Source: Variovorax paradoxus (GTDB taxonomy: Bacteria > Pseudomonadota > Gammaproteobacteria > Burkholderiales > Burkholderiaceae_C). From it: 64,000 bases of DNA. Below the pieces are notes generated by a model. The model was not told the DNA's origin. It did not search any database and was given only the letters and a program-made list of their open reading frames with translations. Made by a program: the position numbers and the translations under genes. Shown piece after piece: positions 20,697 to 40,970 of the stretch; position 1 is the stretch's first letter; each line of letters opens with the position of its first letter. The stretch spans positions 7,806,501 to 7,870,500 of the forward strand of contig NZ_CP091716.1 of assembly GCF_022009635.1 (NCBI RefSeq), read 5' to 3'.

Positions 20697-20726
20697 AACA
20701 AAACTTTCTTGGACAGGATTCAAACT

Positions 20727-21512: not shown

Positions 21513-21530
21513 GTTCCGTCTGTCCCTCTG

Positions 21531-22517: not shown

Positions 22518-22555
22518 GATGTTTGTCTCCTGTTGTATTTATGGAATGCCTGCCT

Positions 22556-23680
22556 TCAGGCGCAGCGGCTCCAGCGGCCGTACTTTTCGACTTCCTTCGC
22601 ACTGAACTCGAAGCCCAGGCCCGGCGTCTGGTGCAGCACGACGCGGCCGCGCTGGTGCGACAACTGACGGTCCACCAGGCGGCGAAAGTTCAACACTTGG
22701 TCGTCCCAGAAGAACTCGACGTAGCGCGCATTCGGCGTCGCTGCCACCAGCGGCGCATGCAGGTCGTGGAACCAGTGCGGGCACATCTGCACGCCGTAGC
22801 CCGCGGCCATGGCCGCGATGCGCCGCCATTCGGTGATGCCGCCGCACACCGCGGCGTCGGTCTGCAGGATCGCGGCGCCGGCCATGTCCAGCAGCTGTTT
22901 GTGGTACCAGCGCCCATAGCCGATCTCGGCAGTGGCCACCGGAACGCATGTGAGCTTCGCCAGCCGTGCATGGCTCTCGATGTCGTCGGGGCCGAAAGGC
23001 TCCTCGATGAAATACGGGTGGTAAGGCTCGATGCGACGCATGTACTCCATCGCCTGCACCGTGTCGACCCAGCCGTTGTTGCAATCGAGCATGAGCTGCA
23101 CGTCGGGACCAATGGCCTCGCGCGCGGCGCGCACCCGCGACTCCTCGCCCTTCGGGTCCCAGCGGCCGGTCTTCATCTTCACCGCGTTGAACCCCAGTGC
23201 GACGTAGCTGGCCATTTCCTCGCCGACCATCTCCGCGGTCTTGCCGTCGAGGTAGTAGCCGCCGCTGGCGTAGGCCGGCACGGTGTCAAGCTCGACCGCG
23301 CCCAGGTACTTGTGCAGGGGCAGGCCCACGGTGCGCGCGTTGAGGTCCCACAACGCGATGTCCAGTGCGCTGAGCGCGCGCATCACGGTGCCCATGCGGC
23401 CCTGCAGCAGCGACTCCTGGTACATGCGCTGCCACAGTCCTTCGACGGCCAGCGAGTCCTGGCCCAGTAGCACCGGCGCCAGCAGCTGTTCCACTGCGAC
23501 GCGGAACAGTTCGCCCGCCGCGCTGCCGACATAGCAGAAGCCGATGCCTTCGACGCCATCGGCAGAGCGCACCTTCACCAGACCGTAGTGCCGCTCGTGG
23601 ACAGTTCGATTGGAAAAAGAAGTGACGCGGTCGAGCGGGACGCGGGCGACGCAGACGTCGATGGATTGAATGACGGGCAC
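22556..23680 (-). CDS. Mandelate racemase/muconate lactonizing enzyme family (enolase superfamily) dehydratase or racemase
   Basis: A 374-residue enzyme. The GTG at 23680-23678 is chosen because GGAG lies six bases upstream and the capping domain begins with PVIQSIDVCVARVPL. Catalytic residues are visible in order: KxK in NAVKMKTG, the metal Asp in LMLDCNNGW, Glu in FIEEPFGPDD, Glu in ATAEIGYGRW, and the general-base His in CPHWFHDLHAP. This is the mandelate-racemase-type subgroup, whose members dehydrate acid sugars or racemise hydroxy acids. It is the first gene of an operon continuing with a Bug receptor, SDR and RraA-like protein. The divergent LysR starts 104 bases away. Confidence 0.9.
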   Translation of the reverse strand: MPVIQSIDVCVARVPLDRVTSFSNRTVHERHYGLVKVRSADGVEGIGFCYVGSAAGELFRVAVEQLLAPVLLGQDSLAVEGLWQRMYQESLLQGRMGTVMRALSALDIALWDLNARTVGLPLHKYLGAVELDTVPAYASGGYYLDGKTAEMVGEEMASYVALGFNAVKMKTGRWDPKGEESRVRAAREAIGPDVQLMLDCNNGWVDTVQAMEYMRRIEPYHPYFIEEPFGPDDIESHARLAKLTCVPVATAEIGYGRWYHKQLLDMAGAAILQTDAAVCGGITEWRRIAAMAAGYGVQMCPHWFHDLHAPLVAATPNARYVEFFWDDQVLNFRRLVDRQLSHQRGRVVLHQTPGLGFEFSAKEVEKYGRWSRCA

Positions 23681-23784
23681 GGGATTCTCCGGAAGGGGGT
23701 AGTGATGACAGCGCCAGTCTGCGCTCGCCCGAGCATGAGAAAAAGCGCTGAAATCAATGTTCAAACAACGCAAAATACGTGGTC

Positions 23785-24654
23785 ATGGACACCAGCTTTC
23801 TCGAAACCTTCGTGGCCGTCGCCGAGGCCGGCTCCCTCGCGGAAGCTGCACGCCGGCTCGACCTCGCCCCCACCACGGTTGCGCAGCAGATCCGCGCGCT
23901 GGAAACCGACATAGGCAGTCAGTTGCTGCGCCGCGCAGGCCGCACAGTGCAGCCTACCGTGGCCGGCAACCGCATCCTCGCGCGCGCACGTACTCTGCTG
24001 CGCGAAGTGCGCGACCTGCGTTCCGAAGCTTCCGAGCACGCACTGCCCGCCGGCCCGCTGCACCTGGGTGCCACACCGACCGCGTTGATGGGCATGCTGA
24101 CCCCGGCCCTGCTTCGCTGGCGGCAGGTTCACGAGGACATCGAGATCCGCATCGAACCCGGCACCTCTGCCGCGTTGCTGACCAAAGTGCTGGCGGGCGA
24201 ACTGGATGCGGCGCTGCTGGTGCACCCGACATTCGCGCTGCCCAAGACCTGCCACTGGATCCCGCTGCGCAGCGAGCCGCTGATCCTGCTGGCGCCCGCG
24301 AAACTGCGCGTGCGCGACCCGCTGGTCACCGCGGCACGCGAGCCCTTCATCCGCTACGACCGTAGCGTGGTGGCCGGCAAGCTGGCCGACGAGTACCTGC
24401 GCCAGCACGGCGTGCGCCCGCGCGTGCAGTTCGAGCTCGACGGCATCGAATACATCGCCAAGCTGGTGGCCGAGGGCCTGGGGGTTTCGGTCCTGCCCGA
24501 CTGGGCCACGGTGGGAGCGCCCCACCCCGGCCTGAAACGCTGGCCGCTGCCGGCGCCATGCCCGGCGCGCACCGTCGGCCTGCTGTCGCTGCGCGGCGCG
24601 GCCCGGGCGCCGCTGGCGGATGCACTCGCGCAGTTGATGCGAGAGCCCGCCTGA
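23785..24654 (+). CDS. LysR-family transcriptional regulator, divergent from the enolase-superfamily operon
   Basis: A 289-residue regulator with the helix-turn-helix GSLAEAARRLDLAPTTVAQQIRALE near residue 18. The start is taken at ATG 23785, a few codons before the helix-turn-helix; a GTG two codons earlier (23779) is possible. The effector domain contains GPLHLGATPTALMG and GELDAALLVHPTF. Divergence from the operon that starts at 23680 makes it the probable regulator. The 104-bp gap contains the start-proximal sequence CGCTGAAATCAATGTTCAAAC, AT-richer than its surroundings, where the regulator may bind. Confidence 0.88.
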   Translation: MDTSFLETFVAVAEAGSLAEAARRLDLAPTTVAQQIRALETDIGSQLLRRAGRTVQPTVAGNRILARARTLLREVRDLRSEASEHALPAGPLHLGATPTALMGMLTPALLRWRQVHEDIEIRIEPGTSAALLTKVLAGELDAALLVHPTFALPKTCHWIPLRSEPLILLAPAKLRVRDPLVTAAREPFIRYDRSVVAGKLADEYLRQHGVRPRVQFELDGIEYIAKLVAEGLGVSVLPDWATVGAPHPGLKRWPLPAPCPARTVGLLSLRGAARAPLADALAQLMREPA

Positions 24655-26573: not shown

Positions 26574-26596
26574 ACTTTTCTGCTGGTGAAAACTTC
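26574..26596. promoter_or_regulatory. Putative operator (TTTTC-N7-GAAAA), copy upstream of the aminotransferase operon
   Basis: The plus strand reads ACTTTTCTGCTGGTGAAAACTTC in full extent; its core TTTTC-N7-GAAAA is at 26576-26592. The reverse complement matches 35982-36004 at 20 of 23 positions, differing only in the three central bases. It lies 130 bases before the start of the aminotransferase gene. The shared site is probably bound by the IclR-type regulator at 31861. Confidence 0.7.
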
Positions 26597-26725
26597 GAAA
26601 TTTCCGATTGCGGCGCCAGGGGGCCGATGAAAAGATGCCGGCTCTCGTGGAAGTTGTCTAGGGCCTGGCATGTGTCGTGACGGATCGGACGCTTCTTTTC
26701 TTCGCGTACCGCTACCCATCGCCGC

Positions 26726-27937
26726 ATGAGTTCTTCGCCCCCGTTCCAGCTGGCCCGACGTGCCCAGCGCATCCAGCCGTCGATCATTCGCGAGATCCTC
26801 AATCTCGCCGCCCGTCCGGGCGTGATCTCCCTGGCGGGTGGTTTGCCGTCGCCCGATGCATTCCCCCTGGATACGGTCCGCGAGGCGACGCAGCACGTGC
26901 TGCGGCAGACACCGCGTGAAGCATTGCAGTACGCGTCGACCGAGGGCTTTGCGCCGTTGCGCGATTGGGTGGCGCAGGATCTGGCGTCGCAGGGCCTGCG
27001 CGTCGGTGCGGGTGACGTGCTGATCACCAGCGGTTCGCAGCAGGGCCTGGACCTCGTCGGAAAGGTGCTGCTCGATCCCGGCAGCGTGGTCGCGGTCGAG
27101 TCGCCGACCTACGTGGGCGCGCTGCAGGCATTCAACCCGTACGAGGCCGACTACCTCGGCATCGCCAACGACGACGAAGGCCCGCTGCCCGATGCGCTGG
27201 CGCAAGCGGGCGGCGCACGCTTTCTGTACGTGGTGCCGAATTTCCAGAATCCCACCGGTCGCACCATCGGCGCCGCGCGGCGCGTGCAACTGGCCGAGCA
27301 GGCACATCGCATGGGCCTGCCGCTGGTCGAAGACAACCCCTATGGCGACCTGTGGTTCGACGCGCCCGCGCCTGCGTCGCTGGCCTCGCACTGGCAAGAG
27401 GGCAGTGTCTACCTCGGCTCGTTCTCGAAGGTGCTCGCGCCGGGCCTGCGGCTGGGCTACATGGTGGCGCCTGCCTCGCTGATGCCCAAGCTGGTTCAGG
27501 CCAAGCAGGCGGCAGACCTGCACACGCCGATCTTCAACCAGCAGGTGGTCCACCAGATCGTGCGCGACGGGTTTCTGGCCGCGCATGTTCCCGTGATCCG
27601 CGATCGCTATCGCGCCCACCGCGATGCCATGCAGGCCGCGCTGCTGCGCCACTTGCCCGCGGGCTGCCACTGGCGCATTCCCGCCGGCGGCATGTTCTTC
27701 TGGGTCGAAGTGCCCGAAGGCGTCGATGCCATGGCGCTGCTGCCGCATGCCGTGGAGCTTGGCGTGGCGTACGTGCCCGGCTTCGCGTTCTTCGCGGACC
27801 GATCGCGCCGCAACCTGCTGCGCCTGTCTTTCGTGACCGCGCCGCCCGCCCAGATCGATCGGGGCATCGAATTGCTGGCGCAGGCGCTGAACACGGCACT
27901 CGACCAGCCGACAACAAGAAAAGGAGACCACCCATGA
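26726..27937 (+). CDS. PLP-dependent class I/II aminotransferase (2-aminoadipate transaminase-like)
   Basis: A 403-residue fold-type I aminotransferase of the Aro8/LysN type. Motifs: ISLAGGLPSPDAFP at the N-terminus, VPNFQNPTGRT, VEDNPYGDLWF with the Asp that contacts the PLP ring nitrogen, and GSFSKVLAPGLRLGY with the Schiff-base Lys near residue 235. It exchanges an amino group between an amino acid and 2-oxoglutarate. It opens an operon with a Bug receptor whose start overlaps its stop. A 130-base leader from the shared operator precedes it. Confidence 0.9.
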   Translation: MSSSPPFQLARRAQRIQPSIIREILNLAARPGVISLAGGLPSPDAFPLDTVREATQHVLRQTPREALQYASTEGFAPLRDWVAQDLASQGLRVGAGDVLITSGSQQGLDLVGKVLLDPGSVVAVESPTYVGALQAFNPYEADYLGIANDDEGPLPDALAQAGGARFLYVVPNFQNPTGRTIGAARRVQLAEQAHRMGLPLVEDNPYGDLWFDAPAPASLASHWQEGSVYLGSFSKVLAPGLRLGYMVAPASLMPKLVQAKQAADLHTPIFNQQVVHQIVRDGFLAAHVPVIRDRYRAHRDAMQAALLRHLPAGCHWRIPAGGMFFWVEVPEGVDAMALLPHAVELGVAYVPGFAFFADRSRRNLLRLSFVTAPPAQIDRGIELLAQALNTALDQPTTRKGDHP

Positions 27938-28905
27938 TGAAACGCCGCCACTTCTCCATGTCGCTCGCGCTCGCGGCGGCGACCTCGCCCGTGCCTTCCG
28001 TGTGGGCGCAGGACACCACACCCACGCGCATCCTGGTGGGCTTTCCGCCCGGGGGCGGCGTGGACGCGGTGGCGCGCCTGCTGGCGGACAAGCTGCGGGT
28101 TTCGCTGAACACCAATGTGCTGGTGGACAACCGGCCCGGCGCGGCCGGGCGCATTGCGCTGAGCGAGCTGAAGCGTTCGCGGCCCGACGGGCGCACGCTG
28201 GCCATCGCGCCGGGCGGCGCGCTGACCATCCTGCCGTGGCTCTACCCGGCCAGCCTGGGCTACGACCCGGTCAAGGACTTCACGCCGGTCTCGCGCCTGA
28301 CCACGCTGGACCTTGCCATGTCCGTCGGGCCGGCCGTGCCGCCTGGCGACGTGAAGGCGATGTTCGCGTGGATGAAGGCCAACCCCGCGAAGGCCTCCTA
28401 TGCAACGTCCGGCGCGGGCTCGGTGCCGCATTTCGCGGGGCTGGTGATCGCGCAGGCGACCGGCGTTCCGCTGCTCCATGTGCCCTACCGGGGCGGCGCG
28501 CCGGCCATCCAGGACCTGATTGGCGGACAGGTGCCGCTGATGATCGACAGCCCGGCCGAAGTGGTGGAGATGCACCGCAACGGCAAGCTGCGCGTTCTGG
28601 CCGTGACCGGCGCCCAGCGCACGCCCGCCCTGCCCGACGTGCCGACGCTGCGCGAATCGGGCATCGATGTGGTGGTCGACAACTTCTTCGGCCTCTATGG
28701 GCCCGCGAACATGCCGGCCGCCGCCACCGAGCGCATCGACAAGGCCGTGGCGCAGGCGCTCGCATCGCAGGACGTGCGCGACAAGCTCCTGAACCTCGCG
28801 ATGGTGGCCGACCACGGCAGCCCGCAGTTGCTCGCGAGCACGCAAGCCTCCCAGTACAAGCGCTGGGAAGACCCCATCAAACGCTCCGGCTTCAAGGCCG
28901 AATGA
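27934..28905 (+). CDS. Bug/TctC family periplasmic solute-binding protein
   Basis: A 323-residue receptor starting MMKRRHFSMSLALAAAT, with a signal peptide and cleavage after VWA near residue 24. Motifs: LVGFPPGGGVDAVARLL, DNRPGAAGRIALSEL, RPDGRTLAIAPGG and HVPYRGGAPAIQDLIGG. The start overlaps the aminotransferase stop, and GGAG lies eight bases upstream. It feeds the operon its substrate; the aminotransferase and amidohydrolase neighbours suggest an amino- or lactone-containing acid. Confidence 0.92.
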   Translation: MMKRRHFSMSLALAAATSPVPSVWAQDTTPTRILVGFPPGGGVDAVARLLADKLRVSLNTNVLVDNRPGAAGRIALSELKRSRPDGRTLAIAPGGALTILPWLYPASLGYDPVKDFTPVSRLTTLDLAMSVGPAVPPGDVKAMFAWMKANPAKASYATSGAGSVPHFAGLVIAQATGVPLLHVPYRGGAPAIQDLIGGQVPLMIDSPAEVVEMHRNGKLRVLAVTGAQRTPALPDVPTLRESGIDVVVDNFFGLYGPANMPAAATERIDKAVAQALASQDVRDKLLNLAMVADHGSPQLLASTQASQYKRWEDPIKRSGFKAE

Positions 28906-28924
28906 AGAGACAACGCACCACACC

Positions 28925-29842
28925 ATGACAGACATCAGCACAACCACCGGCACGCCCGCTCCTCTCAGGGTCAATCCCCCGCCGCACCCGAACCCCAGCC
29001 GGCCCGCCTACCGGCTGCCGCCCGGCGCCTGCGACGCGCACTGCCACGTGTTCGGGCCCGGTGCGCGCTTTGCGTACTCGCCCAAACGCACCTACGAACC
29101 GACGGACGCGCCGGCGGCGCAATTGCGCGCGCTGCATGCGCTGCTCGGCATCGAGCGCGTGGTGCTGGTGCAGGCCAGCATCCACGGCCACGACAACAGC
29201 GCGATGCTGGACGCCATCGCACAGTCGCCCGACACCTACCGCGGCGTCGCGATGGTGCCCGCATCCATTGCCGACGCCGAGCTGCGAGCCCTGCACGAGG
29301 GCGGCGTGCGTTCGCTGCGCTTCAACTTCGTGCGGCGGCTGGGCGGCGCGCCCGATCTCGACGCCATCCGCAGCCTGGCCCATCGCGTGAAGACGCTGGG
29401 CTGGCACCTGGTGCTGCACTTCGACCCGCAGGACCTGCCGGTGTACCGCCAGTTCCTCGACGAGCTGCCGCTGCCCTACGTGATCGATCACATGGGCCGC
29501 GTGCTCGCCGAAAGCGGCCCGCGGCAAGAGCCTTTCGACGCGCTGCTCGAACTCATGAAGGACGAACGCTGCTGGGTCAAGGTGAGCGGCGCGGAGCGTA
29601 CCTCGCACCTGCTGTCCTCGGGACCGGGCCTGCCTTTCGAGGACGCCGTGCCCTTCGCGCGCCGGCTGATCCAGGCGGCCCCCGACCGCGTGCTCTGGGG
29701 CACCGACTGGCCGCACCCCAGCGTGCGCGAGATGCCCGACGACGGCAAGCTGGTCGACCTGCTGCCGCTTTTTTCAGACGATCCCGCCGTGCTCCACAAG
29801 CTGCTGGTGGACAACCCCACGCGCCTTTACTGGCAAGACTGA
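28925..29842 (+). CDS. TIM-barrel amidohydrolase (2-pyrone-4,6-dicarboxylate lactonase-like)
   Basis: A 305-residue member of the amidohydrolase_2 family. The metal-site motif is CDAHCHVFGP near residue 36; VLVQASIHGHDN, VRSLRFNFVRR, HLVLHFDPQD, VIDHMGR and LWGTDWPHP (the catalytic Asp) follow in family order. This resembles LigI and related lactonases. LigI-type enzymes open pyrone-dicarboxylate or other lactones. It follows the Bug receptor by 19 bases and precedes the SnoaL-like gene by 19. The exact substrate is not known. Confidence 0.87.
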   Translation: MTDISTTTGTPAPLRVNPPPHPNPSRPAYRLPPGACDAHCHVFGPGARFAYSPKRTYEPTDAPAAQLRALHALLGIERVVLVQASIHGHDNSAMLDAIAQSPDTYRGVAMVPASIADAELRALHEGGVRSLRFNFVRRLGGAPDLDAIRSLAHRVKTLGWHLVLHFDPQDLPVYRQFLDELPLPYVIDHMGRVLAESGPRQEPFDALLELMKDERCWVKVSGAERTSHLLSSGPGLPFEDAVPFARRLIQAAPDRVLWGTDWPHPSVREMPDDGKLVDLLPLFSDDPAVLHKLLVDNPTRLYWQD

Positions 29843-29861
29843 AACGGCACGAAAGCCACGC

Positions 29862-30302
29862 ATGAACCACATCGAAAAACTCGCGATTCGCCAGGCGCTC
29901 GAGGCACTGGCCGTCGACTACTGGTACGAGGTCGACTTCAATTGGGGCCAGGACGCCCACGCCTACTACACCGAGGACGCGGTATTCACCACCAGCCAGA
30001 AGTCGCGCACCGGCCGCGCCGCCATTGCCGACTTCTACAACGCGCGGCAGGCACGCGGCGCGCGCACGTCGCTGCACGTGGTGCAGAACTTCCGCGTGGT
30101 GCCGGTGTCGCCGCAGCGCGTGGACTGCAACTACGTGATGAGCCTCTACGCTGCCGACGGCGAAGGCGTGCTGCCCTCCCGGCCCGCGATCATGATCGCC
30201 GACGTGCGCGAGACGGTCGTGCGCCAGCCCGACGGGGCCTGGCTCTACGCGCTGCGCACGCTGCGTCCGCTGTTCCGGGACGACACGCCGACCACGGGCT
30301 GA
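29862..30302 (+). CDS. SnoaL-like/NTF2-fold protein, ring-hydroxylating-dioxygenase beta-like
   Basis: A 146-residue cone-shaped NTF2-like protein. It begins NHIEKLAIRQALEALAVDYWYEVD, then YYTEDAVFTTSQKSRTGRAAIADFY, the usual SnoaL-type start, and ends in LYALRTLRPLF. The family includes isomerases, dehydratases and small subunits of oxygenases. No oxygenase large subunit is seen nearby, so it likely acts alone on a pathway intermediate. It lies in the operon between the amidohydrolase and the flavin reductase. Confidence 0.8.
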   Translation: MNHIEKLAIRQALEALAVDYWYEVDFNWGQDAHAYYTEDAVFTTSQKSRTGRAAIADFYNARQARGARTSLHVVQNFRVVPVSPQRVDCNYVMSLYAADGEGVLPSRPAIMIADVRETVVRQPDGAWLYALRTLRPLFRDDTPTTG

Positions 30303-30326
30303 AGCGCTCGAACGAAAGAAGTCCCC

Positions 30327-30956
30327 ATGCTCTTCATCGACCCCGAAAACGCACCCGGTTTCAAGCGCACCCTGTTCAACGCCATCGTGGCGCCCCGGCC
30401 CATCGGCTGGATCAGCACGATGAGCCCCGAAGGCCAGGTCAACCTGGCGCCGTTCTCTCACTTCAACCTGGTTTCCACGGCGCCGCCGGTGGTGATGTTC
30501 TCCTGCAACGCGCCCGCCGACCGGCACGAGAAGGACACCATCACGAACGTGCGCGCGACCGGCGAGTTCGTCACCAACCTCGTGACCTGGGAGCTGCGCG
30601 ACCTCATGAACATCAGCTCGCTCGACGCGCCCTACGGCACCGACGAGTTCGAACTCGCCGGCCTGGAGAAGGCGCAAAGCCAGAAGGTGCGACCGCCGCG
30701 CGTGGCGCGCTCGCCGGCGAGCATGGAATGCAAGCTGCTGCGCATCGTCGAGATCGAGCCGCAGGGGCCGGGCGACACGGTCAGCAACGTGGTGTTCGGC
30801 CGGGTGGTCGGTATCCACCTGGACCCGGCCTTCGTCGAGCCGAACGGCCGTTTCGACGTGGCGCGCACCCTGCCGCTCACGCGGCTGGGCGGCAACCAGT
30901 ACGCGTCGGTCGGCCCGCTGGTCGAACTCTCGCGGCCGAGCCCGCGGCGCGACTGA
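30327..30956 (+). CDS. Flavin reductase-like FMN-binding split-barrel protein
   Basis: A 209-residue protein with the flavin_Reduct motifs AIVAPRPIGWISTMSPEG, NLAPFSHFNLVSTAPPVV and KDTITNVRATGEFVTNLV. It binds FMN and may reduce it or act as an oxidoreductase subunit. It sits within the catabolic operon, 24 bases after the SnoaL-like gene. No flavin-dependent monooxygenase is encoded nearby, so its electron acceptor is unclear. Confidence 0.87.
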   Translation: MLFIDPENAPGFKRTLFNAIVAPRPIGWISTMSPEGQVNLAPFSHFNLVSTAPPVVMFSCNAPADRHEKDTITNVRATGEFVTNLVTWELRDLMNISSLDAPYGTDEFELAGLEKAQSQKVRPPRVARSPASMECKLLRIVEIEPQGPGDTVSNVVFGRVVGIHLDPAFVEPNGRFDVARTLPLTRLGGNQYASVGPLVELSRPSPRRD

Positions 30957-30993
30957 CGGCACGCACCGCAATCAAGTCAATGAAAGGAACACG

Positions 30994-31827
30994 ATGACGA
31001 ACACCACACCCGAAACCGGCGTACGCCGCGCCTCGGTCCACGAGCTTGCGCCGGGTTCGGTCGCGCGCGGACAGAACTTCTGGGTCCAATGGATCGAGGG
31101 CGCGGCCCCGGTCGAAGCCACCAGCCTGAACGAGATGCTGCTGCTGCTGCCCGACGGCGGCGCCACCGTGCACGCCGGTGCCGAGGTGCGCGAAGTGCCG
31201 GGGCGCAGCGTCTGCGTGCTGCCGGCCGGCGCCGTCACGGTGCGCCTCGCGGGTACGGGCCAGGGCACGGACCGCGCCGCGCTGGTCGCGTCTTCGCGGC
31301 CCGACCTGGCGCCCGGCGTGGCGCGCAACCAGACCGACTACGCCGTGCCCGACGCCCGGGTGCGTCCGGTCGGCGACGACTACCACCGCCGCGCATCCGC
31401 CGGTGCGATCCGCGTCATGGAAGTCGACGCGATCCAGCCCCCGGCCGACAAGCCCCGGCTCAAGATGTTCCAGACCGATACGCTGAGCATCAACTGGGTC
31501 GAATACCAGGAGGCGCGCGACCGCACCCAACTGAGCCCGCACAACCACGCCGACTTCGAGCAGGGCTCGCTGGCGATGGCGGGCGACTTCGTGCACCACC
31601 TGCGCGTCAACTGGGGCGGCAACGCCGACCAGTGGCGCGACGACGAGCACCTGCACGCGCCTTCGCCCTCGATGATCACGGTGCCGGTGCTGCTGGTGCA
31701 CACCACCGAAGGCGTGGGCCCGGGCCGCCATCTGCTGATCGACGTGTTCTCGCCGCCGCGGCACGACTTCATCGACAAGGGCTGGGTGGCCAACGCAGGC
31801 GACTACGAGCGCCGCAAGGCCGGCTGA
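30994..31827 (+). CDS. Cupin-like double-domain protein, possible dioxygenase or isomerase
   Basis: A 277-residue protein of unknown function with two cupin-like halves. The N-terminal half carries NEMLLLLPDGGATV and GRSVCVLPAGAVTVRL. The C-terminal half carries LSPHNHADFEQGSLAMAG, where His-x-His and Glu look like metal ligands, and a later DEHLHAPSPSMITVP with two more His. I infer a metal-dependent cupin. It is the last gene of the forward operon, 33 bases before the IclR gene. Such proteins often act on oxo acids or aromatic fragments. Confidence 0.7.
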   Translation: MTNTTPETGVRRASVHELAPGSVARGQNFWVQWIEGAAPVEATSLNEMLLLLPDGGATVHAGAEVREVPGRSVCVLPAGAVTVRLAGTGQGTDRAALVASSRPDLAPGVARNQTDYAVPDARVRPVGDDYHRRASAGAIRVMEVDAIQPPADKPRLKMFQTDTLSINWVEYQEARDRTQLSPHNHADFEQGSLAMAGDFVHHLRVNWGGNADQWRDDEHLHAPSPSMITVPVLLVHTTEGVGPGRHLLIDVFSPPRHDFIDKGWVANAGDYERRKAG

Positions 31828-31860
31828 AGCACGACAGGCGCGGCCTACACTGCGCCCTCC

Positions 31861-32628
31861 ATGCCATCCTTCACTCCCATCCGTGCCGTCGAGCGCGCCA
31901 TCGACGTACTGGCCGCGCTCAACCGTTCCCCCGTCTGCACGCTCGACACGCTGCACCGCCAGACGGGCATTCCCAAGCCCACGCTGATCCGGCTGCTCGA
32001 AACGCTGGAGGGCAAGGGGCTGGTCACACGGGCACCGCAGTACGGGGCCTACAGCCTCACATCGGGCGTGCGGCAGCTGTCGTCGGGCTACCACGGCGAG
32101 CCGCGACTGGTGGAGGCCTCGATGCGCCCCATGGACGAGCTGACGCGCAAACTCAAATGGCCCATTGCGCTGGCGGTGCCCGATTACGACGCGGTCGTGA
32201 TCCGCTACAGCACGATTCCCAGCTCGCCGCTGTCGTTGCTGCACTCCAGCATCAACATGCGCCTGAGCTTCATGACGCGCGCGCTCGGCCGGGTCTACCT
32301 CGCGGCCTGCACGGCGCAGGAGTGCCGCGCGCTGCTCGACATCCTCAGGGTTTCGGACGATCCGGAAAATGCGCCGGCGGCCCAGCCGCGCACCGTGCAG
32401 GCGATGCTGCGGCAGATCCGCCAGCAGGGCTATGCGTTGCGCGTGCCCGATGTCAGGCCGGTCTCGAACACGCTGGCCGTGCCCATCTTCGAAGGACGCA
32501 GGGTCGTGGCCAGCGCCGGGCTCACATGGATCACCTCCGCCATCAGCGAAGAGCAGGCGGTGAAGAAATTCCTGCCGCCGATGCAGGAGATGGCCCTGCG
32601 CATCAGGGAGCGGCTCAGCGCGCTCTAG
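31861..32628 (+). CDS. IclR-family transcriptional regulator
   Basis: A 255-residue IclR protein. The winged helix-turn-helix (residues 6-65) reads AVERAIDVLAALN, TGIPKPTLIRLLETLE and YSLTSGVRQLSSG. The effector domain contains MTRALGRVYLAACTAQE, the usual LG-x-A-xLA-style segment, and ALRVPDVRPVSNTLAVPIF. It resembles MhpR-type activators of aromatic catabolism. It lies between two convergent catabolic operons and overlaps the 3' end of the aldolase gene by 14 bases. It probably binds the TTTTC-N7-GAAAA sites at 26574 and 35982; this is inference. Confidence 0.9.
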   Translation: MPSFTPIRAVERAIDVLAALNRSPVCTLDTLHRQTGIPKPTLIRLLETLEGKGLVTRAPQYGAYSLTSGVRQLSSGYHGEPRLVEASMRPMDELTRKLKWPIALAVPDYDAVVIRYSTIPSSPLSLLHSSINMRLSFMTRALGRVYLAACTAQECRALLDILRVSDDPENAPAAQPRTVQAMLRQIRQQGYALRVPDVRPVSNTLAVPIFEGRRVVASAGLTWITSAISEEQAVKKFLPPMQEMALRIRERLSAL

Positions 32629-33364
32629 ATGTCCTGGGCGGTCCGGCAAAGGCCTGCACCGCCTGCCGCAGCAAGGTCTGGTCGGACGAAACGACGAACC
32701 AGTTGGCGCCCTCGGCCATGAATTGCTCGCGCTCGGGCGTGCCGCCCACGTGCATGCCCGCGAGCTTGCCGGCTCGCGTGGCCGCCTGCAGCGCCACGCG
32801 GGTGGCCTGCAGCACCTCCGGCGCGCGCGGATCGTCCAGCCCCATCGACAACGCCAGGTCGGCGCGGCCCACGAACAGGCCCGCCACGCCCGGCACGTCG
32901 GCAATCGCCTGCGCTTCCTCGACGGCCTGCGCGCTCTCGATCTGGCAGACGATCTGCGCCTGGTCGCCCAGCTGCAGCGCCTGCGCCATGCCCAGGCTCG
33001 CGTAGCCCGCAAAACGCGGGCCGCCCGAGTAGCCGCGGCGGCCGCCGCGGTAGCGCGCCATGGCCACCACCTCGCGGGCTTGTTCGGCGGTGTCCACGTG
33101 CGGCACCAGCAGCCCGGCCGCGCCGATGTCGAGGCAGGAAAGAATCACCGCCGGATTGATCTCCGGGATGCGGATGAACACCGGTATCCCAGCGGCGCGC
33201 CCGCCCATCACCATCAGGTCGAGCAGCGCGCGATCGAAGGGCGCGTGCTCGGCGTCGACCACGACGAAGTCCAGGCCGGTGGTACCGAGCACTTCGACGG
33301 TTTGCGGCGAACCGGTCTTGACGAAGGTGCCGAGTTGCGCTTCGGCCGTGCTGCTGTCTTTCAT
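32615..33364 (-). CDS. HpcH/HpaI-type 2-oxo-acid aldolase
   Basis: A 249-residue class II pyruvate aldolase. Motifs: GTFVKTGSPQTVEVLGTTG, FVVVDAEHAPFD (His near residue 41), FIRIPEINPAVI, AAGLLVPHVDTAEQA, the metal Glu in QIESAQAVEEA and Asp in VGRADLALSMG. It splits 4-hydroxy-2-oxo acids into pyruvate and an aldehyde. The start MKDSSTAEAQL is chosen as the family begins there; a longer frame upstream overlaps the Bug gene. It is the last gene of the reverse operon after the hydro-lyase subunits and Bug receptor. Confidence 0.9.
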   Translation of the reverse strand: MKDSSTAEAQLGTFVKTGSPQTVEVLGTTGLDFVVVDAEHAPFDRALLDLMVMGGRAAGIPVFIRIPEINPAVILSCLDIGAAGLLVPHVDTAEQAREVVAMARYRGGRRGYSGGPRFAGYASLGMAQALQLGDQAQIVCQIESAQAVEEAQAIADVPGVAGLFVGRADLALSMGLDDPRAPEVLQATRVALQAATRAGKLAGMHVGGTPEREQFMAEGANWFVVSSDQTLLRQAVQAFAGPPRTSRAR

Positions 33365-33384
33365 GGGCGTATGCCTGCCTTTCT

Positions 33385-34388
33385 TCAGTCGAGCTTGATC
33401 TGCGCGGTCTTGATCACGCGCTGCCACTTCTGGCCGTCGGCCTCGATGCGCTGGCGCAGCAGTGCCGGCGCACCGCTTGCCACCACGCCGCCGTATTGCT
33501 GCAGCTTGCTCTTGCCCTGCGGGGATTCGAGCAGGCGGTTGATCTCGGCGTTGAGTCGCTGCACCATGGGTGCCGGCATGCCTGCCGGCCCGACCATCGC
33601 GAACCACACCGTCGCCGTCTGGTCGATGCCCTGCTCCTGGCGGTCGGCACATCGGGCAGGCCGGGAAAGCGCGTGCCCGATGTCACCGCCAGCCCGCGCA
33701 GCTTGCCTGCCTGGATGTTCGGAATGAAGGTGGAGACGGGCGCCGAGATGGCCTGCACCACGCCGCCCAGCAGGTCCGTGAGCGCGGGGGTGTCGCCGCG
33801 ATAAGGCACGTCCTGCAGGCGCACGCCGACTGTCTGCGACAGGTCGGCCAGCGCCAGGTGGCCGATGGTGCCGTTGCCGGGCGTGGCGACGGAGAACGCG
33901 GAAGGTTTGGCCTTCGCCGCCTCCACGAACTCCTTGAGGTTGCGCACCTTCAGCTGCTCGGGGTTGCTGACGAAGACCATCGGGATCTCGCAGACCAGCG
34001 CAATCGGTGTCAGGTCCTTGTCGCCGTCGAAGGGCATCGACTTGTAGAGGAACTTGTTGTTCACCAGCGGGCCCGAGGTGACCAGGCCGATGGTGTAACC
34101 GTCGGGTGCGGCCTTCGCCACGGCGTCGGTGCCGATGTTGCCGGCCGCGCCGGCCCGGTTGTCGACCACGACGGGGGCGCCCAGGCGCTCGCCCAGGCCC
34201 TGCGCGAGATAGCGCGCCACCATGTCGGTGCTGCCGCCAGCCGGGAAGGGCACGACCATGCGGATCGGGCGGTTCGGCCACCCGCTGTTCGAGGCCCATG
34301 CAGCCATCGGCGAGAGGCTCGCGGCCACGCCTGCGCCAACTGCACCGATGGCGCCCAGGCTCGCGCCGAGCCAATGTCTCCTGTTCAT
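33385..34388 (-). pseudogene. Bug/TctC family solute-binding protein, single frameshift
   Basis: The frame from MNRRHWLGASLGAIG runs through a signal peptide, VVPFPAGGSTDMVARYL, DNRAGAAGNIGTDAV and DVPYRGDTPALTDLLGG to LPDVPTA. One base is missing in CCGCCAGG near 33636-33643. The next frame then continues EQGIDQTATVWFAMVGPAG through to the normal end at 33385. Adding one C (GCCCAG) restores about 334 residues. The gene lies between the hydro-lyase and aldolase genes. It is either a fresh pseudogene or a reading error. Confidence 0.88.
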
Positions 34389-34410
34389 TCTTGAAGTCTC
34401 CTGAGGTTTT

Positions 34411-35028
34411 CTAAAGGGATGCCTTGCGGGCGGTTTCCAGTCGCTGCAGCAATTGCGGCATGCGGGCCTGCGCCTGATCGCGCAGCTGGTCGTAGAGGCT
34501 GTTGCCGTGGGCATCGATCGCCACCGTGGCGGGGCCGAGCGCGGCCACGTTCAGGGTCAGCAGGCGGAACTGCGAGATGTATTCGTTCCAATGGGACGAC
34601 ACCACGCGGCGCAGCCCGCGCGAGAGCAGCGGCGCTCCGCCGCCGAGAAAGGACAGGTAGACGCAGCCGGTGTCGCGCAGCGCCTGCACGCAGGCCGCGT
34701 CGAGCCCGCCCTTGCCGCCGGTCAGCCGCAGATCGAGGCCGCGCACCAGCGGCGGCATCCAGGCGTTGTAGCGCGTGCTGGTGCTCGGGTTCATGTAGAG
34801 CGGCACGGGGCCGTCGGCGGTCTCGCGCACGAAGGTGCTCAGGTGGAAGAAGGCGCCGCCGCGCAGATCGACCGGCAACGCCTGGCCGTCGGCCACGGCC
34901 TGCGCCATGCGCTGGTGCGTGGGCAGGCCGATGCTGACGGTGATATCGCCGTCCAGCGTCACCATGTCGCCGACCGCGAGTTCGCGCACCTTCTCGCGCG
35001 AGAGGGGAAGTTCAAGCTTGTGGAGCAT
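34411..35028 (-). CDS. Class I fumarase/tartrate dehydratase family hydro-lyase, beta subunit
   Basis: A 205-residue protein matching the C-terminal (beta) domain of Fe-S fumarases and L-tartrate dehydratase. It shows KLELPLSREKVRELAVGDMV, DITVSIGLPTHQRM, NPSTSTRYNAWM and TGGKGGLDAACVQAL, the GKGG segment being the conserved substrate-binding loop. It pairs with the alpha subunit, which starts upstream on the same strand with six bases between. The complex hydrates or dehydrates fumarate, tartrate or a related acid. Neighbouring Bug, aldolase and porin genes favour a catabolic substrate over citric-acid-cycle duty. Confidence 0.88.
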   Translation of the reverse strand: MLHKLELPLSREKVRELAVGDMVTLDGDITVSIGLPTHQRMAQAVADGQALPVDLRGGAFFHLSTFVRETADGPVPLYMNPSTSTRYNAWMPPLVRGLDLRLTGGKGGLDAACVQALRDTGCVYLSFLGGGAPLLSRGLRRVVSSHWNEYISQFRLLTLNVAALGPATVAIDAHGNSLYDQLRDQAQARMPQLLQRLETARKASL

Positions 35029-35034
35029 CGCGGC

Positions 35035-35907
35035 CTACCAGTTGAGGTCTTCGACGCGGCCGTCGTTGTAGATGCGCGCTGAGGTGCGGCGGTTGATCCA
35101 GCAGTTGAAGCACACCGCGACCGGTACGAAGCCATGGCTCGCCGCATAGTCGATGTGTACCGCCATTGCGCTGGCATCGCCGCCGGTGCCCATGGGGCCG
35201 AAGCCCATGGCGTTGATGGCGTCCAGCAGGCGCTGCTCCATGGCCGCGAGGATGGGCTCCGGGTTGGTGCGGCCGAAGGGGCGCAGCACCGACTCCTTGG
35301 CCAGCCGCGCCGCGTAGTCGAAGGTGCCGCCGATGCCCACGCCGACAACGATGGGCAGGCAGGGTTGCGAGCCCGCGCGCAGCACGGTGTCGAGCACGAA
35401 TTTCTCGATCTGCTCGAGCGTCGGGTACACGAAGGCGTCGACGGCCTCCCAACGGCCGGTGCCCATGGCCTTGGGCGCGCAGACGATTTCCATGTAGTCG
35501 GCGTCGTCGATCACATCGAAGCTCAGCAGCGGCATGTCCTTGCCCGCATAGCTGCGCGCATGCGTGAGCGGGTTGGTCACCATCTTGAGGATCGGCGGGT
35601 CGATGTGCTGCACCAGGTCGGCAAAGCCGCGCACGATGGCCTCGCGCACCGGCCCGTCGAACTGCACGCGCGTGCCGATCTTGATGCTGTAGGTGGGAAT
35701 GCCGACGTCGGTGCACACCAGCTCGTTGCCCTGCTGCGCGGCGTCGGCGCTGTGCAGCATGATCTTGAGCGTGTGCTTGCCGGTGCTGCCGGTCTCGGCT
35801 GTTTCGGCGCGCTGCAGCGCGGCACGCGTGTCGTCGGGAATTTTCTTCAGGGAGCGCTCATAGAGCTGCGCCGTCACTCGTTGAAGAGTGGCACTGTCGA
35901 TGGCCAT
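35035..35907 (-). CDS. Class I fumarase/tartrate dehydratase family hydro-lyase, alpha subunit
   Basis: A 290-residue protein matching the N-terminal (alpha) domain of Fe-S hydro-lyases. Likely cluster cysteines are in ELVCTDVGIPTYSIK, QPCLPIVVGVGIGGTFD and VAVCFNCWINRR. Other family motifs are THARSYAGKDMPLLSFDVI and GFGPMGTGGDASAMAVHIDYA. The start MAIDSATLQRV lies 75 bases from the operator at 35982. It is the first gene of the reverse operon: alpha, beta, Bug receptor, HpaI-type aldolase. Confidence 0.89.
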   Translation of the reverse strand: MAIDSATLQRVTAQLYERSLKKIPDDTRAALQRAETAETGSTGKHTLKIMLHSADAAQQGNELVCTDVGIPTYSIKIGTRVQFDGPVREAIVRGFADLVQHIDPPILKMVTNPLTHARSYAGKDMPLLSFDVIDDADYMEIVCAPKAMGTGRWEAVDAFVYPTLEQIEKFVLDTVLRAGSQPCLPIVVGVGIGGTFDYAARLAKESVLRPFGRTNPEPILAAMEQRLLDAINAMGFGPMGTGGDASAMAVHIDYAASHGFVPVAVCFNCWINRRTSARIYNDGRVEDLNW

Positions 35908-35981
35908 GTTTACGTGGGATTCGCTTGTCTCGATGGCCCGTACGATGCGCTGTCGCGAGCAAGTGTTCAAGCGCATTCTTT

Positions 35982-36004
35982 GAAGTTTTCACCTGTAGAA
36001 AAGT
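35982..36004. promoter_or_regulatory. Putative operator (TTTTC-N7-GAAAA) midway between hydro-lyase operon and porin
   Basis: The sequence GAAGTTTTCACCTGTAGAAAAGT has core TTTTC at 35986-35990 and GAAAA at 35998-36002. Its centre at 35994 is 87 bases from the hydro-lyase start and 86 from the porin start, so one site could serve both promoters. It matches the site at 26574-26596 (reverse complement) at 20 of 23 positions. Confidence 0.7.
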
Positions 36005-36079
36005 CTGAACGTTTCGTTTGCGCCGGTGCCGTCGCCCCTCCAACAATGCGCTCCCCAACTTTCATGGAGGAGACAAGCA

Positions 36080-37297
36080 ATGAGGTTTTTCGCGATGGGA
36101 CTTGCAGCCGCCGGCCTGGCCGGTGCGGCGTGCGCCCAATCTTCGGTCACGCTGTTCGGCGTGGTCGATGCCGGCATCAGCGGCTATTCGAACAAGTCGA
36201 CGGACCCGAAATCGGCCACGCTGGCCAATCCGTTCTATCGGAACCAGGGCAGCGTCACCGCGAGCCAGCGGGTGCTGTCGAACTCGGGCCTTGCGTCCAG
36301 CCGCGTCGGCTTTCGCGGCGTCGAAGACCTGGGCGGCGGACTGGCCGCGAGCTTCTGGCTCGAATCATCGATCACCAACGACTCGGGGCAGGAAGGCATC
36401 CAGAGCTTCGCGCGCCGCTCGACAGTCAGCCTGTCCGGCAGCTTCGGCGAGATCCGCCTGGGCCGGGATATCAACGCGACCTTCACCAACGACTTCGTGT
36501 TCGACCCGCTCGGCGTCAATGGCGTGGGCGTCAACCTGCTCTACCGCGCCGGCACCGCGATGAGCAAGATGGGCGTGCCGCAATCGGCGGGCGTGTCCCC
36601 GGTGCTGACCAATGCCTATGCGCGCAGCAGCAACATGGTGTCCTACTTCCTGCCGCCGAACCTCGGGGGCTTCTATGGACAGGTGCAGTACGCCTTCAAC
36701 GAGAAGACCCAGACCTCGCCCGGCGTGCTGACGCCCGCCGCGACCGACACGCGTTCGGGCCGCTTCGTCGGCGGACGCTTCGGCTACGACCGGGGGCCGC
36801 TGAACGTGGCCCTGGCGCTCAGTCGCAACACGCTGCTGAGCGACTACCTCACGGGCACCACGCTGCGACAGGACACCGTCAACCTCGGCGCGGCCTACGA
36901 CCTGGGCGTGGCGAAGCTCTTCGGCGAGGTTTCGCGCATCAAGAACCGGACGATCGTCACCGGCCTGGCGGCCAGTACAGCGTCCGACCTCGATCTCTCG
37001 GGATTGATGTTCGGCGTCAACGTGCCGGTGGGGCCGGGCGTGATCCGGGCGTCTTATGCAAAGGTGCGGTACGACTACCACCGGCCGTTCAACACCACGC
37101 CGGACCCGAAGGCGCGGCAGCTGGCGTTGAGCTACGTGCACAACCTGTCCAAACGCACCGCCCTGTATGCGAGCGTTGCGCGCATCGACAACAGGAACGG
37201 CGCGGCGCTGTCCGTGGGTGGTCCGAGCTTCGTGTCGGGCGCTCTTGTGCCAAGCCGCTCGACCGGCTACGACTTCGGGCTTCGCCATGCCTTCTGA
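36080..37297 (+). CDS. Gram-negative general porin, Burkholderiales type
   Basis: A 405-residue outer-membrane trimeric porin. GGAGGAG lies 7-13 bases before ATG 36080. The signal peptide is MRFFAMGLAAAGLAGAACA with cleavage before QSSVTLFGVVDAG, the standard porin N-terminus. RVGFRGVEDLGGGLAASFWLE, SLSGSFGEIRLGRD and the terminal Phe of YDFGLRHAF are also typical. It is divergent from the hydro-lyase operon and shares its operator region, so it likely lets in the substrate. Its stop overlaps the start of the next gene by 11 bases. Confidence 0.95.
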   Translation: MRFFAMGLAAAGLAGAACAQSSVTLFGVVDAGISGYSNKSTDPKSATLANPFYRNQGSVTASQRVLSNSGLASSRVGFRGVEDLGGGLAASFWLESSITNDSGQEGIQSFARRSTVSLSGSFGEIRLGRDINATFTNDFVFDPLGVNGVGVNLLYRAGTAMSKMGVPQSAGVSPVLTNAYARSSNMVSYFLPPNLGGFYGQVQYAFNEKTQTSPGVLTPAATDTRSGRFVGGRFGYDRGPLNVALALSRNTLLSDYLTGTTLRQDTVNLGAAYDLGVAKLFGEVSRIKNRTIVTGLAASTASDLDLSGLMFGVNVPVGPGVIRASYAKVRYDYHRPFNTTPDPKARQLALSYVHNLSKRTALYASVARIDNRNGAALSVGGPSFVSGALVPSRSTGYDFGLRHAF

Positions 37298-38327
37298 TTC
37301 CATGCGCACCCCGACGAACGGGTGCCCCCTGCGCATCGCGGTCATTGGCGCGGGCGCCATCGGCGGCCACTTCGCGGCGCGGCTCGCGCAGGCCGGGCAC
37401 TCGGTCACCGTGCTCGACCGCGGCGCCACGCTGGAAGCGATTCGCGAGCACGGCCTGCGCTACACAAGCGGCCCGCAGCCGCAGCAATGCATCGCGGTTC
37501 GCGCCGCGGCATCGCCGCTCGAGATGGAGCCGCCCGAACTCGTGGTGCTCGCGCTCAAGTCGCACGTGCTGCCGGCGGTGGTGCCCACGCTGTCGCCCCT
37601 GCTGAAAGAAGGAGCCACTGTTCTGCCGGTCGGCAACGGCTTGCCGTGGTGGTATTTCCTGGTGCCCGGAAAGCCGCTGTCCGGTTTGCGTCTTCGAAGC
37701 GTGGACCCCGAAGGCGCCATCGAAAGAAGCATCGACGTGCAACAGGTGCTCGGCGGCAGCGTGATGGCGTCCTGCCACTGTTCGGAGCCGGGCGTGGTAG
37801 TGCACAGCGCCGGCGGACGCGTCGTGGTCGGAGAGCCGGCCGGCGGACTCAGCGAACGTGCGCAGCACTGGGCCGGCGTGCTGGCTGACGCCGGGCTTGG
37901 CGCCGTCGCGAGCGACGATATCCGCAGCGAGCTTTGGCTCAAATTGCTGGGCAATGCCTGTGCCAATCCGCTGAGCCTGCTGACCGGCGTGACCACCGAC
38001 CGGATGCTGGACGATGATCCGATGCGCCAATTGTTCGAACGCATGATGACCGAGTGCATCTCGCTCGGTCGGCGGCTGGGCCTGACGATCCAGACCGACA
38101 CGGCGCAGCGCATGGCGCAGACACGCAAGCTCGGCGCGATCAAGACCTCGATGCTGCAGGACATGGAGGCCGGCCGCGGCGTGGAACTCGATGCGATCCT
38201 CGGTGCCGCGCTCGAAAGCGCATCGGCCTTGCAGCAGCCGGTGCCCTACCTGGAGAGCGCGTTCGCGCTGGCCTGCATGCGGGCGCAGCAGGCCGGGTTG
38301 TACTTCTCGCGAAGTTCGGCCCGCTGA
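37287..38327 (+). CDS. Ketopantoate reductase (PanE/ApbA) family protein
   Basis: A 346-residue NADP-dependent dehydrogenase. GAGAIGGHFAARLAQAGH forms the dinucleotide-binding site; ALKSHVLPAVVPTL, PVGNGLPWWYF, and the catalytic Lys/Asn region LWLKLLGNACANPLSLLTG follow. MLQDMEAGRGVELDAILG matches the conserved SSMLQD-like loop. It is longer and more divergent than panE of pantothenate synthesis, and its coupling to a porin suggests that it reduces a 2-oxo acid of the same pathway. The start overlaps the porin's last codons. Confidence 0.87.
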   Translation: MPSDSMRTPTNGCPLRIAVIGAGAIGGHFAARLAQAGHSVTVLDRGATLEAIREHGLRYTSGPQPQQCIAVRAAASPLEMEPPELVVLALKSHVLPAVVPTLSPLLKEGATVLPVGNGLPWWYFLVPGKPLSGLRLRSVDPEGAIERSIDVQQVLGGSVMASCHCSEPGVVVHSAGGRVVVGEPAGGLSERAQHWAGVLADAGLGAVASDDIRSELWLKLLGNACANPLSLLTGVTTDRMLDDDPMRQLFERMMTECISLGRRLGLTIQTDTAQRMAQTRKLGAIKTSMLQDMEAGRGVELDAILGAALESASALQQPVPYLESAFALACMRAQQAGLYFSRSSAR

Positions 38328-39115: not shown

Positions 39116-40348
39116 ATGCCCGAAACCTCCGAGTATTTGAGCGATTTCCGGCCGCGTTTTCGCCAGCCCAGCGCGGCGGATCTCTGCACGGAAGTGCCGT
39201 GCATGACGACCGAGGAGACGAACGAGAAGGTGATGGAGGTTTTCAACCGGCACCGCGACCTCGTCAGCCTGCCGGTGGTGGAGCAGAACCAGCCGATCGG
39301 CCTGATCAACCGGAACATCTTCCTGTCGCAGATGAGCAAGCCGTTCCGCGTCGAGCTGTATGGCCGCAAGAGTTGCATCGCCTTCATGGACAAGGACCCG
39401 CTGATCGTCGATGCGGCGCTGGACCTGGAAGCGTTGACCTTCAAGACCGTGGCGCACGGCGAGAAGGCCCTGTCCGACGGCTTCATCATCACGCGCGACG
39501 GCGAGTTCGCCGGCGTCGGCAACGGCTTGCAGCTCATGCGCCTGGTGGCGGACCTGCAGGTGTCGCGCAACCGCCAGATCATGCACAGCATCGAATACGC
39601 CAGCGTGATCCAGCGCTCCACCCTGCGCAGCTCGCTCGACGCCCTGTCGCGCGCCTGTCCCGAGGCCCACCTGGTGTGGGAGCCGCGCGACGTGGTCGGC
39701 GGCGATTTCTACCAGTTCAGCACCGCGGCGGACGGCTGGTTCGCCACCGTGGCCGACTGCACGGGGCACGGCGTTCCCGGCGCCTTCATGACGCTGATCG
39801 CCTCCACCAACCTGAATCAGGCCATCGAGCAGCACGGGCCGCGCGACCCCGCCCTCCTGCTGGGCAACGTGAATCGCAGTATCAAACATATGCTGGGCCA
39901 GATGGACGGGCAGGACGCAACGCCCGGCTCGGACGACGGCATGGACGCCGCGTGCTTCTGGTTCGAGCCCGCGCATGGCCGGCTGGTGTTTGCCGGCGCC
40001 CGGCTGTCGCTGTTCCTGCTGCGCCCCGGCGCCGATGCCGTGGAACTGGTCGAGGGGCAGCGCAAGGGCGTGGGCTACATGGACACCGAGTTCGACTTCG
40101 GCTGGACCAACCAGGAACTGCACCTGCCCCAGGGCAGCCTTGTCTTCGTGAGCACCGACGGGCTGATCGACCAGGTCGGCGGCCCCCGCGCCATCGCACT
40201 GGGCAAGCGTCGCGTGCGCGAACTGCTGCTCGAGCAGCGCGGGCGCACGGCCGCGCAAGTCAATCAGGCGGTGCTGGACGCCCTGCGGGCCTGGCAAGGC
40301 GAGCACCACCGCCGCGACGACCTGACCTTTTTCTGTTTCCGCACCTGA
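39116..40348 (+). CDS. SiaA-like PP2C/SpoIIE phosphatase with CBS-like N-terminal domain
   Basis: A 410-residue soluble protein. Residues 1-150 look like a CBS-pair domain: HRDLVSLPVVEQNQPIGLINRN and TVAHGEKALSDGFIITRDGEFAGV. Residues 170-410 are a PP2C/SpoIIE phosphatase with metal Asp in DVVGGDFYQF, ADCTGHGVPGAFMT, FVSTDGLIDQ and HRRDDLTFF. SiaA of Pseudomonas aeruginosa has membrane and HAMP parts instead. In Sia systems this phosphatase dephosphorylates SiaC and so sets diguanylate cyclase activity. It heads an operon of SiaB-, SiaC- and SiaD-like genes. Confidence 0.9.
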   Translation: MPETSEYLSDFRPRFRQPSAADLCTEVPCMTTEETNEKVMEVFNRHRDLVSLPVVEQNQPIGLINRNIFLSQMSKPFRVELYGRKSCIAFMDKDPLIVDAALDLEALTFKTVAHGEKALSDGFIITRDGEFAGVGNGLQLMRLVADLQVSRNRQIMHSIEYASVIQRSTLRSSLDALSRACPEAHLVWEPRDVVGGDFYQFSTAADGWFATVADCTGHGVPGAFMTLIASTNLNQAIEQHGPRDPALLLGNVNRSIKHMLGQMDGQDATPGSDDGMDAACFWFEPAHGRLVFAGARLSLFLLRPGADAVELVEGQRKGVGYMDTEFDFGWTNQELHLPQGSLVFVSTDGLIDQVGGPRAIALGKRRVRELLLEQRGRTAAQVNQAVLDALRAWQGEHHRRDDLTFFCFRT

Positions 40349-40363
40349 CACGGGAATTCACCC

Positions 40364-40936: not shown

Positions 40937-40970
40937 ACCGCCCAAGCCCGGCAACGAATCGAGATTACAG

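Follow-up and report, generated by a model that had tools for sequence, protein, structure and literature searches.

In the protocatechuate 4,5-cleavage route, the 2-pyrone-4,6-dicarboxylate lactonase LigI is followed by LigJ and LigK. In Escherichia coli, the mhp genes for 3-(3-hydroxyphenyl)propionate are regulated by MhpR, which RefSeq annotates as an activator. For a subgroup of group 1 of the IclR regulators, the motif WTTYCRYW3RYGRAAW has been described (Suvorova and Gelfand 2021, PMC8222616). The accessible part of that article also ties COG3618 (the LigI family according to its reference list) and COG3181 to IclR regulogs and gives in Table 1 the motif ATTCC-N7(5)-GGAAT for the IclR-type protein GenR of Corynebacterium glutamicum, which activates and represses catabolic genes according to a title in the reference list. 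Here, we analyzed 64,000 nucleotides of Variovorax paradoxus DNA (assembly GCF_022009635.1, contig NZ_CP091716.1, positions 7,806,501 to 7,870,500; the whole stretch is referred to as the window), in which two catabolic operons and a porin-panE gene pair very probably form a regulon joined by two copies, O1 and O2, of an IclR-type operator. The regulator and the motif are thus of known kinds; for the cluster, regulon, and pathway, no description was found in the open-licence literature, the supplement of PMC8222616, which possibly lists the regulon, being outside the search.

Probably, a single IclR regulator switches on three promoters of the cluster through the two operator copies. In its full form, which we hold with good though not complete confidence, our explanation is that an MhpR-like, ligand-dependent activator acts at O1 and O2, about 59 bp upstream of the predicted transcript starts, on three transcription units serving the breakdown of one acid. 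The iclR product, as a dimer or a pair of dimers, would bind the 21-bp dyad ACTTTYC-N7-GRAAAGT and be placed thereby upstream of weak sigma-70 promoters. From O1, it would drive the operon running from the aminotransferase gene to iclR, reinforcing its own synthesis, and from O2 the hydro-lyase/Bug receptor/aldolase operon in one direction and the porin-panE pair in the other, with equal geometry. The initial annotation had proposed one IclR regulon comprising both operons and the porin, and conservation, co-occurrence, and fixed geometry support this well; for its further proposal of a single pathway, the basis is the conserved co-localization of the genes. It assigned no mode of action; the geometry suggests activation.

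The regulator gene iclR (31861..32628, + strand) encodes both domains of the family, HTH_IclR (PF09339, 42.3 bits, cutoff 22) and IclR_C (PF01614, 43.6 bits, cutoff 24). Its product exceeds the cutoff of the curated NCBIfam model NF007342 (PRK09834), presumably the MhpR model, with 380 versus 251 bits, and aligns with E. coli MhpR over 218 columns at 33% identity. Instead of lying between the two operons, as first annotated, iclR closes the aminotransferase operon, starting 33 nt after the cupin gene, and its 3' end shares 14 nt with that of the convergent aldolase gene. Because iclR ends the operon that O1 would drive, positive autoregulation is predicted. In this respect the cluster differs from mhp, as it does in its catabolic genes.

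O1 and O2 were found exactly where they had been placed, at 26574-26596 (+) and 35982-36004 (-) as 23-mers, and agree in the same-sense alignment at 21 rather than the previously counted 20 of 23 positions, with mismatches at positions 9 and 11. As 21-mers, O1 (ACTTTTC-N7-GAAAACT) spans 26574..26594 on the + strand and O2, common to two divergent promoters, spans 35984..36004. The reported spacing of the second site also holds: its 23-mer center (35993) lies 86 nt from the hlA start (35907) and 87 nt from the porin start (36080). The operator form TTTYC-N7-GRAAA fits the IclR subgroup consensus in its outer letters, spacing, and variable Y/R position, the letters inside N7 not being required to fit; unlike in that motif, as given in the accessible part of PMC8222616, the flanking AC/GT is conserved in the cluster operators. 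The same part of the article places sites relative to gene starts, whereas here they are placed relative to promoters.

Conservation of the motif upstream of orthologous operons, the check proposed together with the initial prediction, was observed in several genera, including rearranged clusters. Among 59 fetched loci encoding IclR relatives, 19 (L008-L026, 54-92% identity) were analyzed, and of the other 40 (50% identity or less) the gene maps of L027, L028, and L030 were included. The dyad ACTTTYC-N7-GRAAAGT precedes catabolic operons in most orthologous clusters of Variovorax, Verminephrobacter, Hydrogenophaga, Pseudacidovorax, Ramlibacter, and other Burkholderiales. The gene order of the window was retained together with both sites in three Variovorax loci (L008, L009, L010) and in a further genome of the genus (L152); O2 was also kept in L011. 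In five-locus alignments, the arm bases of O2 were invariant at 14 of 14 positions versus 111 of 151 other columns, and those of O1 at 12 of 14 versus 64 of 180; since much of the gap surrounding O2 is conserved as well, the contrast there is modest. Verminephrobacter has a site before hlA (L011) and, on a separate contig (L110), another about 140 bp before an amidohydrolase match, near which an aminotransferase match was not seen. In a Burkholderiales metagenome-assembled genome and two Hydrogenophaga (L012, L013, L113), the genes are rearranged, and the sites still stand before panE, aminotransferase, Bug receptor, or hlA genes. Across five whole genomes with close orthologues (the genome of L008 left out), exact ACTTTTC-N7-GAAAA occurred at 13 places, 10 of them at cluster genes and three elsewhere (L111 once, L112 twice).

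At the loci with 54-59% identity, this first form of the core was not seen; several of them carry ACTTTCC-N7-GGAAAGT, found by a dyad search near iclR, which retains the 7-N7-7 design and differs by one symmetric base change. L149/L154 and L145 are intermediate between these two operator dialects. The second, TTTCC-N7-GGAAA, is close to the GenR motif from the accessible part of PMC8222616; GenR is actinobacterial and controls other genes. A single recognition-helix residue fixing T or C at the variable position was considered: E47 accompanies T in eight regulators of one clade, but Q47 was found with T (L026, L069) as well as with C. Positions 4, 42, and 52 separate T from C better, a split that tracks kinship.

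In the conserved blocks, a TTG hexamer starts 24 nt from each operator center, at O2 in both directions. When pairs of an operator and a direction were chosen according to the operator match and the orientation of the genes, TTG began precisely at +24 in all 24 pairs from close orthologues and in 16 of the 18 from distant ones; the next best offsets reached 5 and 2. Many pairs stem from near-identical orthologues; merging these by eye leaves about 12 and 13 promoters, of which 12 and 11 have the TTG. Three of four further sites (L111, L112 twice, L148) also had it, the exception being L148, which had no iclR-like match in the stretch examined. In controls, +24 TTG occurred in 2 of 52 cases when sites that had not been chosen (up to 3 mismatches) were read in either direction (both cases in L017, perhaps real), and in 2 of 30 in the direction opposite to the chosen one. 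The two L017 sites, at 7948 (+) and 20192 (-), are weaker operators, the latter preceding an amidohydrolase/SnoaL gene pair that resembles the first operon of the window. A -10-like box follows after 17 bp, at about +47; among 41 distinct sequences, its A at +48 is present in 38 and its T at +52 in 34. The predicted promoters of the window follow this layout, with the -35 box starting at +24 from the operator center: the aminotransferase operon promoter (26608..26636, +; -35 TTGCGG at 26608-26613, 17 bp, -10 AAAGAT at 26631-26636), the hlA promoter (35942..35970, -; -35 TTGAAC at 35970-35965, 17 bp, -10 CATCGT at 35947-35942), and the porin promoter (36018..36047, +; -35 TTGCGC at 36018-36023, 18 bp, -10 AACAAT at 36042-36047).

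A composite model of operator, -35, and -10 elements, trained on 26 promoters, scored left-out loci at 23-49, compared with a maximum of 9.0 in 10 mononucleotide-shuffled loci, and recovered sites missed by the dyad scan (L018, L022/L153, L026). The L026 site scores in both directions, between divergent amidohydrolase and hlA genes, an independent arrangement that resembles O2 of the window. In L014, no composite site of at least 9 was present within the stretch examined; its hlA site is in L113. Within the window, the three promoters, all training members, scored 39-48 when left out, and the next best score was 14.4. A composite match with one mismatch elsewhere in the same genome (L159, base 1501) falls within a frame of 558 codons and was taken as chance.

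An operator whose center lies about 59 bp ahead of a predicted start, with 13 nt separating it from the -35 box, occupies an activator position. The alternative that the IclR protein binds the operators and represses until a ligand releases it draws on the fact that several IclR-family proteins are repressors, according to the accessible part of PMC8222616. Here, the operator stands clear of the predicted promoter, the gap from the 21-mer to the -35 box being 13 nt in 40 of 42 pairs, and MhpR, the nearest characterized relative found, is annotated as an activator; we therefore regard repression as unlikely. Activation is predicted because the operator lies upstream of the predicted promoter and does not overlap it. 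The E. coli mhpR-mhpA gap offers a comparable layout, a palindrome, GTGCACCTGGTGCAC, followed by the -10-like box TATACT starting at +47 from its center, equal to the distance found here. TTGTAG, read as the -35 box, starts there at +25 with a 16-bp spacer, and another TTG stands at +21; this promoter assignment is itself a reading of the sequence. The operator sequences differ, as judged from the MhpR site in the accessible part of PMC8222616.

Co-occurrence bears on the identity of the binding protein. The regulator (E <= 1e-60) is patchily distributed, being encoded in 7 of the 101 genomes sampled from the genus and in 8 of the 399 sampled from the family. ACTTTTC-N7-GAAAANT was detected at 7 places in four of the 101 genus genomes (G000, G404, G453, G455), which are precisely the genomes whose orthologue has at least about 90% identity (Fisher p 2.4e-7); three of the four were known beforehand (the window, L009, L010), so that this search adds G453 and 97 absences. 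The reversed control of this pattern gave 8 matches in 7 of the 101 genomes. The pattern CTTTYC-N7-GRAAA-N15-TTG, which adds the -35 element, occurred at 18 places in 13 of the 101 genomes, 11 of them in the seven regulator-bearing ones. The corresponding Fisher value of 1e-7 is not independent, because all seven had served to find the spacing.

That another transcription factor binds the dyad, with the IclR protein as a bystander, appears still less probable than repression. The assignment of the binder is made from sequence, and the three off-cluster sites, in two regulator-bearing genomes (L111, L112 twice), keep the +24 TTG; they may serve the regulator or a paralogue, and G105 has a second relative with 56% identity. 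Against the bystander alternative, the dyad fits the IclR consensus in the accessible part of PMC8222616, and its form tracks the IclR orthologue present. IclR alone among the regulators of the query set occurs in all 19 loci, and in L008-L010 the cluster does not have the LysR gene of the window next to it. Judging from translations, the L112 sites (7292-7400, G496:C16) lie at a Bug/MaoC-like/ligase/short-chain dehydrogenase operon divergent from an aldehyde dehydrogenase gene, and the L111 site (6476, G497:C38) precedes a Bug receptor gene beside an acyl-CoA synthetase gene. These sites are possibly extra regulon members or paralogue targets.

Several observations weigh against the activator regulon proposed here. 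The likeness of O1 and O2 by itself is weak evidence, and conservation carries the weight: 12 shuffles of the 9.6 kb gave 16 pairs agreeing at 21 or more positions (inverted pairs counted twice), and a second real 21/23 pair, at 29407/35595, falls in coding DNA of this segment. ACTTTCC-N7-GGAAA had 21 rows listed in 18 of 101 genus genomes versus 17 control matches, only the G477 site being at the cluster, and the unified palindrome matched at 10 places in 9 of 399 family genomes, three of which have the regulator, compared with control matches in 19 genomes. Since these genome-wide counts are not above control, palindrome counts of the second dialect carry no weight on their own. The operator plus TTG pattern also occurs at 7 places in 6 of the 94 genus genomes lacking the regulator (reversed control, 3) and is thus fairly, but not perfectly, specific. 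Two of the 18 distant pairs lack the +24 TTG, namely L146 and L023 8315 in the direction first chosen; at the latter, TTG is present in the opposite direction, toward a Bug receptor gene. The -10 boxes are poor, with the porin box requiring an 18-bp spacer, and composite scores are weak in L025 (13.0) and L146 (11.6).

The bare core TTTTC-N7-GAAAA, for which a genome-wide scan had been proposed with the initial prediction, was not above chance in the 7.95-Mb genome, with 5 places versus 4 for the reversed control. Because bare palindromes are not enriched over control, our argument rests on position and co-occurrence. In the window, the core had two exact places, and allowing up to one mismatch gave three matches versus 0.22 expected from shuffles. 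For the O1 and O2 promoter regions alone, the best of 400 shuffles reached 18/23, and the 23-mer, allowing up to 3 mismatches, has no further place in the genome beyond these two sites and a redundant contig-end copy of the locus. Chance resemblance of the two sites, to which the commonness of such pairs in shuffles and the near-control core count lend some appearance, is ruled out by conservation, co-occurrence, and spacing in other genera, even though the raw pair similarity is not significant.

The catabolic genes suggest what the regulon may serve. The partners kept through rearrangements, not all in every locus, are the amidohydrolase, the flavin-reductase-like protein, the HpcH/HpaI aldolase, the bicupin, the PanE-like protein, the hydro-lyase subunits, and the Bug receptors, the last presumably corresponding to COG3181. 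The pathway would import an organic acid, open a lactone, hydrate the product, and cleave off pyruvate; this order of lactone opening, hydration, and aldol cleavage is plausible by analogy with the LigI route. The amidohydrolase (28925..29842, +; PF04909) is closest to LigI among solved chains (4d8l, 7e-74), with matching HxH, DHMGR, and GTDWPHP stretches, which we take to be the LigI metal and catalytic motifs. It scored 233 bits under the 4-sulfomuconolactone hydrolase model NF042924 (cutoff 500), and three other clusters tested contain a more distant amidohydrolase, nearest to L-fuconolactonase and far under the cutoff. Unlike in the LigI route, an Fe-S hydro-lyase would act as hydratase and an HpcH/HpaI-type protein (32615..33364, -; PF03328; 1dxe, 5e-31) as aldolase, and aminotransferase, cupin, PanE-like, and flavin-reductase-like proteins are present in addition. 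A ring-cleavage enzyme was not recognized in the cluster, and the Pfam and NCBIfam scans gave no mhp annotation among its genes.

Among the hydro-lyase models, only the alpha subfamily model TIGR00722 was passed, by the alpha subunit (hlA, 35035..35907, -; 198 bits, cutoff 101; 7xky, 1e-46). The beta subunit (hlB, 34411..35028, -) scored 91.7 bits under TIGR00723 (cutoff 145). Cysteines aligned with those of a fumarase are retained. Because the equivalog scores for L(+)-tartrate dehydratase and class I fumarase were not reached by alpha (NF006084, 131 of 365 bits; NF004885, 205 of 276) or by beta (NF006082, 80.5 of 264; NF004708, 107 of 269), we name the enzyme without a substrate. The PanE-like 2-dehydropantoate 2-reductase family protein (37302..38327, +; NF005089, 348 bits, cutoff 223; TIGR00745, 195 bits, cutoff 141) follows the porin gene (36080..37297, +), which was read by eye from its translation and has a ribosome-binding-like GGAGGAG ahead of its start.

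The aminotransferase, cupin, SnoaL-like, and flavin-reductase-like proteins fall outside the proposed order of steps. The class I/II pyridoxal phosphate-dependent aminotransferase (26726..27937, +; PF00155) is below the cutoffs of the 25 NCBIfam models listed, of 61, and is followed by Bug-type receptor 1 (TctC; 27937..28905, +; PF03401). Downstream of the amidohydrolase gene lie the SnoaL-like gene (29862..30302, +; PF13577), the flavin-reductase-like gene (30327..30956, +; PF01613; 1eje, 3bpk, 4z85), and the bicupin gene (30994..31827, +). The bicupin, a predicted two-domain cupin (mean predicted local distance difference test score 84.5), matched no Pfam or NCBIfam family, and the structure matches listed include generic bicupins (oxalate decarboxylase, quercetinase, KduI, YlbA) that indicate no function. 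It has 563 relatives at E <= 1e-5, the named ones among the 120 listed being mostly hypothetical or mannose-6-phosphate-isomerase-like, and 50 columns are invariant across 18 sequences. In an order-wide sample, it was present in 1 of 349 genomes, that of the window; a protein search found relatives in Burkholderia, Paraburkholderia, and Achromobacter.

Bug-type receptor 2 (33385..34388, -; PF03401 over part of the profile) is frameshifted in the assembly and occupies two frames. Its relatives in G453 (L152) and Variovorax boronicumulans (L010) are each encoded in a single open frame, and two single-base gaps distinguish the contig-end copy; for these reasons, the frameshift is likely an assembly error. 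That copy (L194, G000:C1:1-20000) repeats window positions 27757-47811 with 99.66% identity and 40 gap openings and is probably an untrimmed overlap of a circular long-read contig rather than a duplication, which accounts for the third 23-mer match. Elsewhere in the window, reading of translations pointed to a second catabolic-looking cluster (19971-24654), with RraA-like, short-chain dehydrogenase/reductase, Bug receptor, enolase-superfamily, and LysR regulator proteins, and to a signaling module (39116-44343) of a phosphatase-like protein, small partners, and GGDEF/EAL-type proteins.

Starting from a guessed motif, our analysis arrives at a predicted regulon for which promoters, the direction of control, and a rule for spacing are specified, and defines the gene set of a patchily distributed, uncharacterized catabolic pathway in environmental Burkholderiales. 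It is tempting to speculate, though we regard this as rather doubtful, that one symmetric IclR operator activates two divergent promoters simultaneously with the same -59 geometry, that the fixed phase is a general rule for MhpR-type activators, and that the regulon encodes an undescribed route by which a LigI-like lactonase, an Fe-S hydro-lyase, and an HpcH/HpaI aldolase convert a carboxylated lactone or pyrone to pyruvate. If the spacing rule were general for MhpR-type regulators, the operators and targets of many unstudied IclR activators would be readable from sequence.

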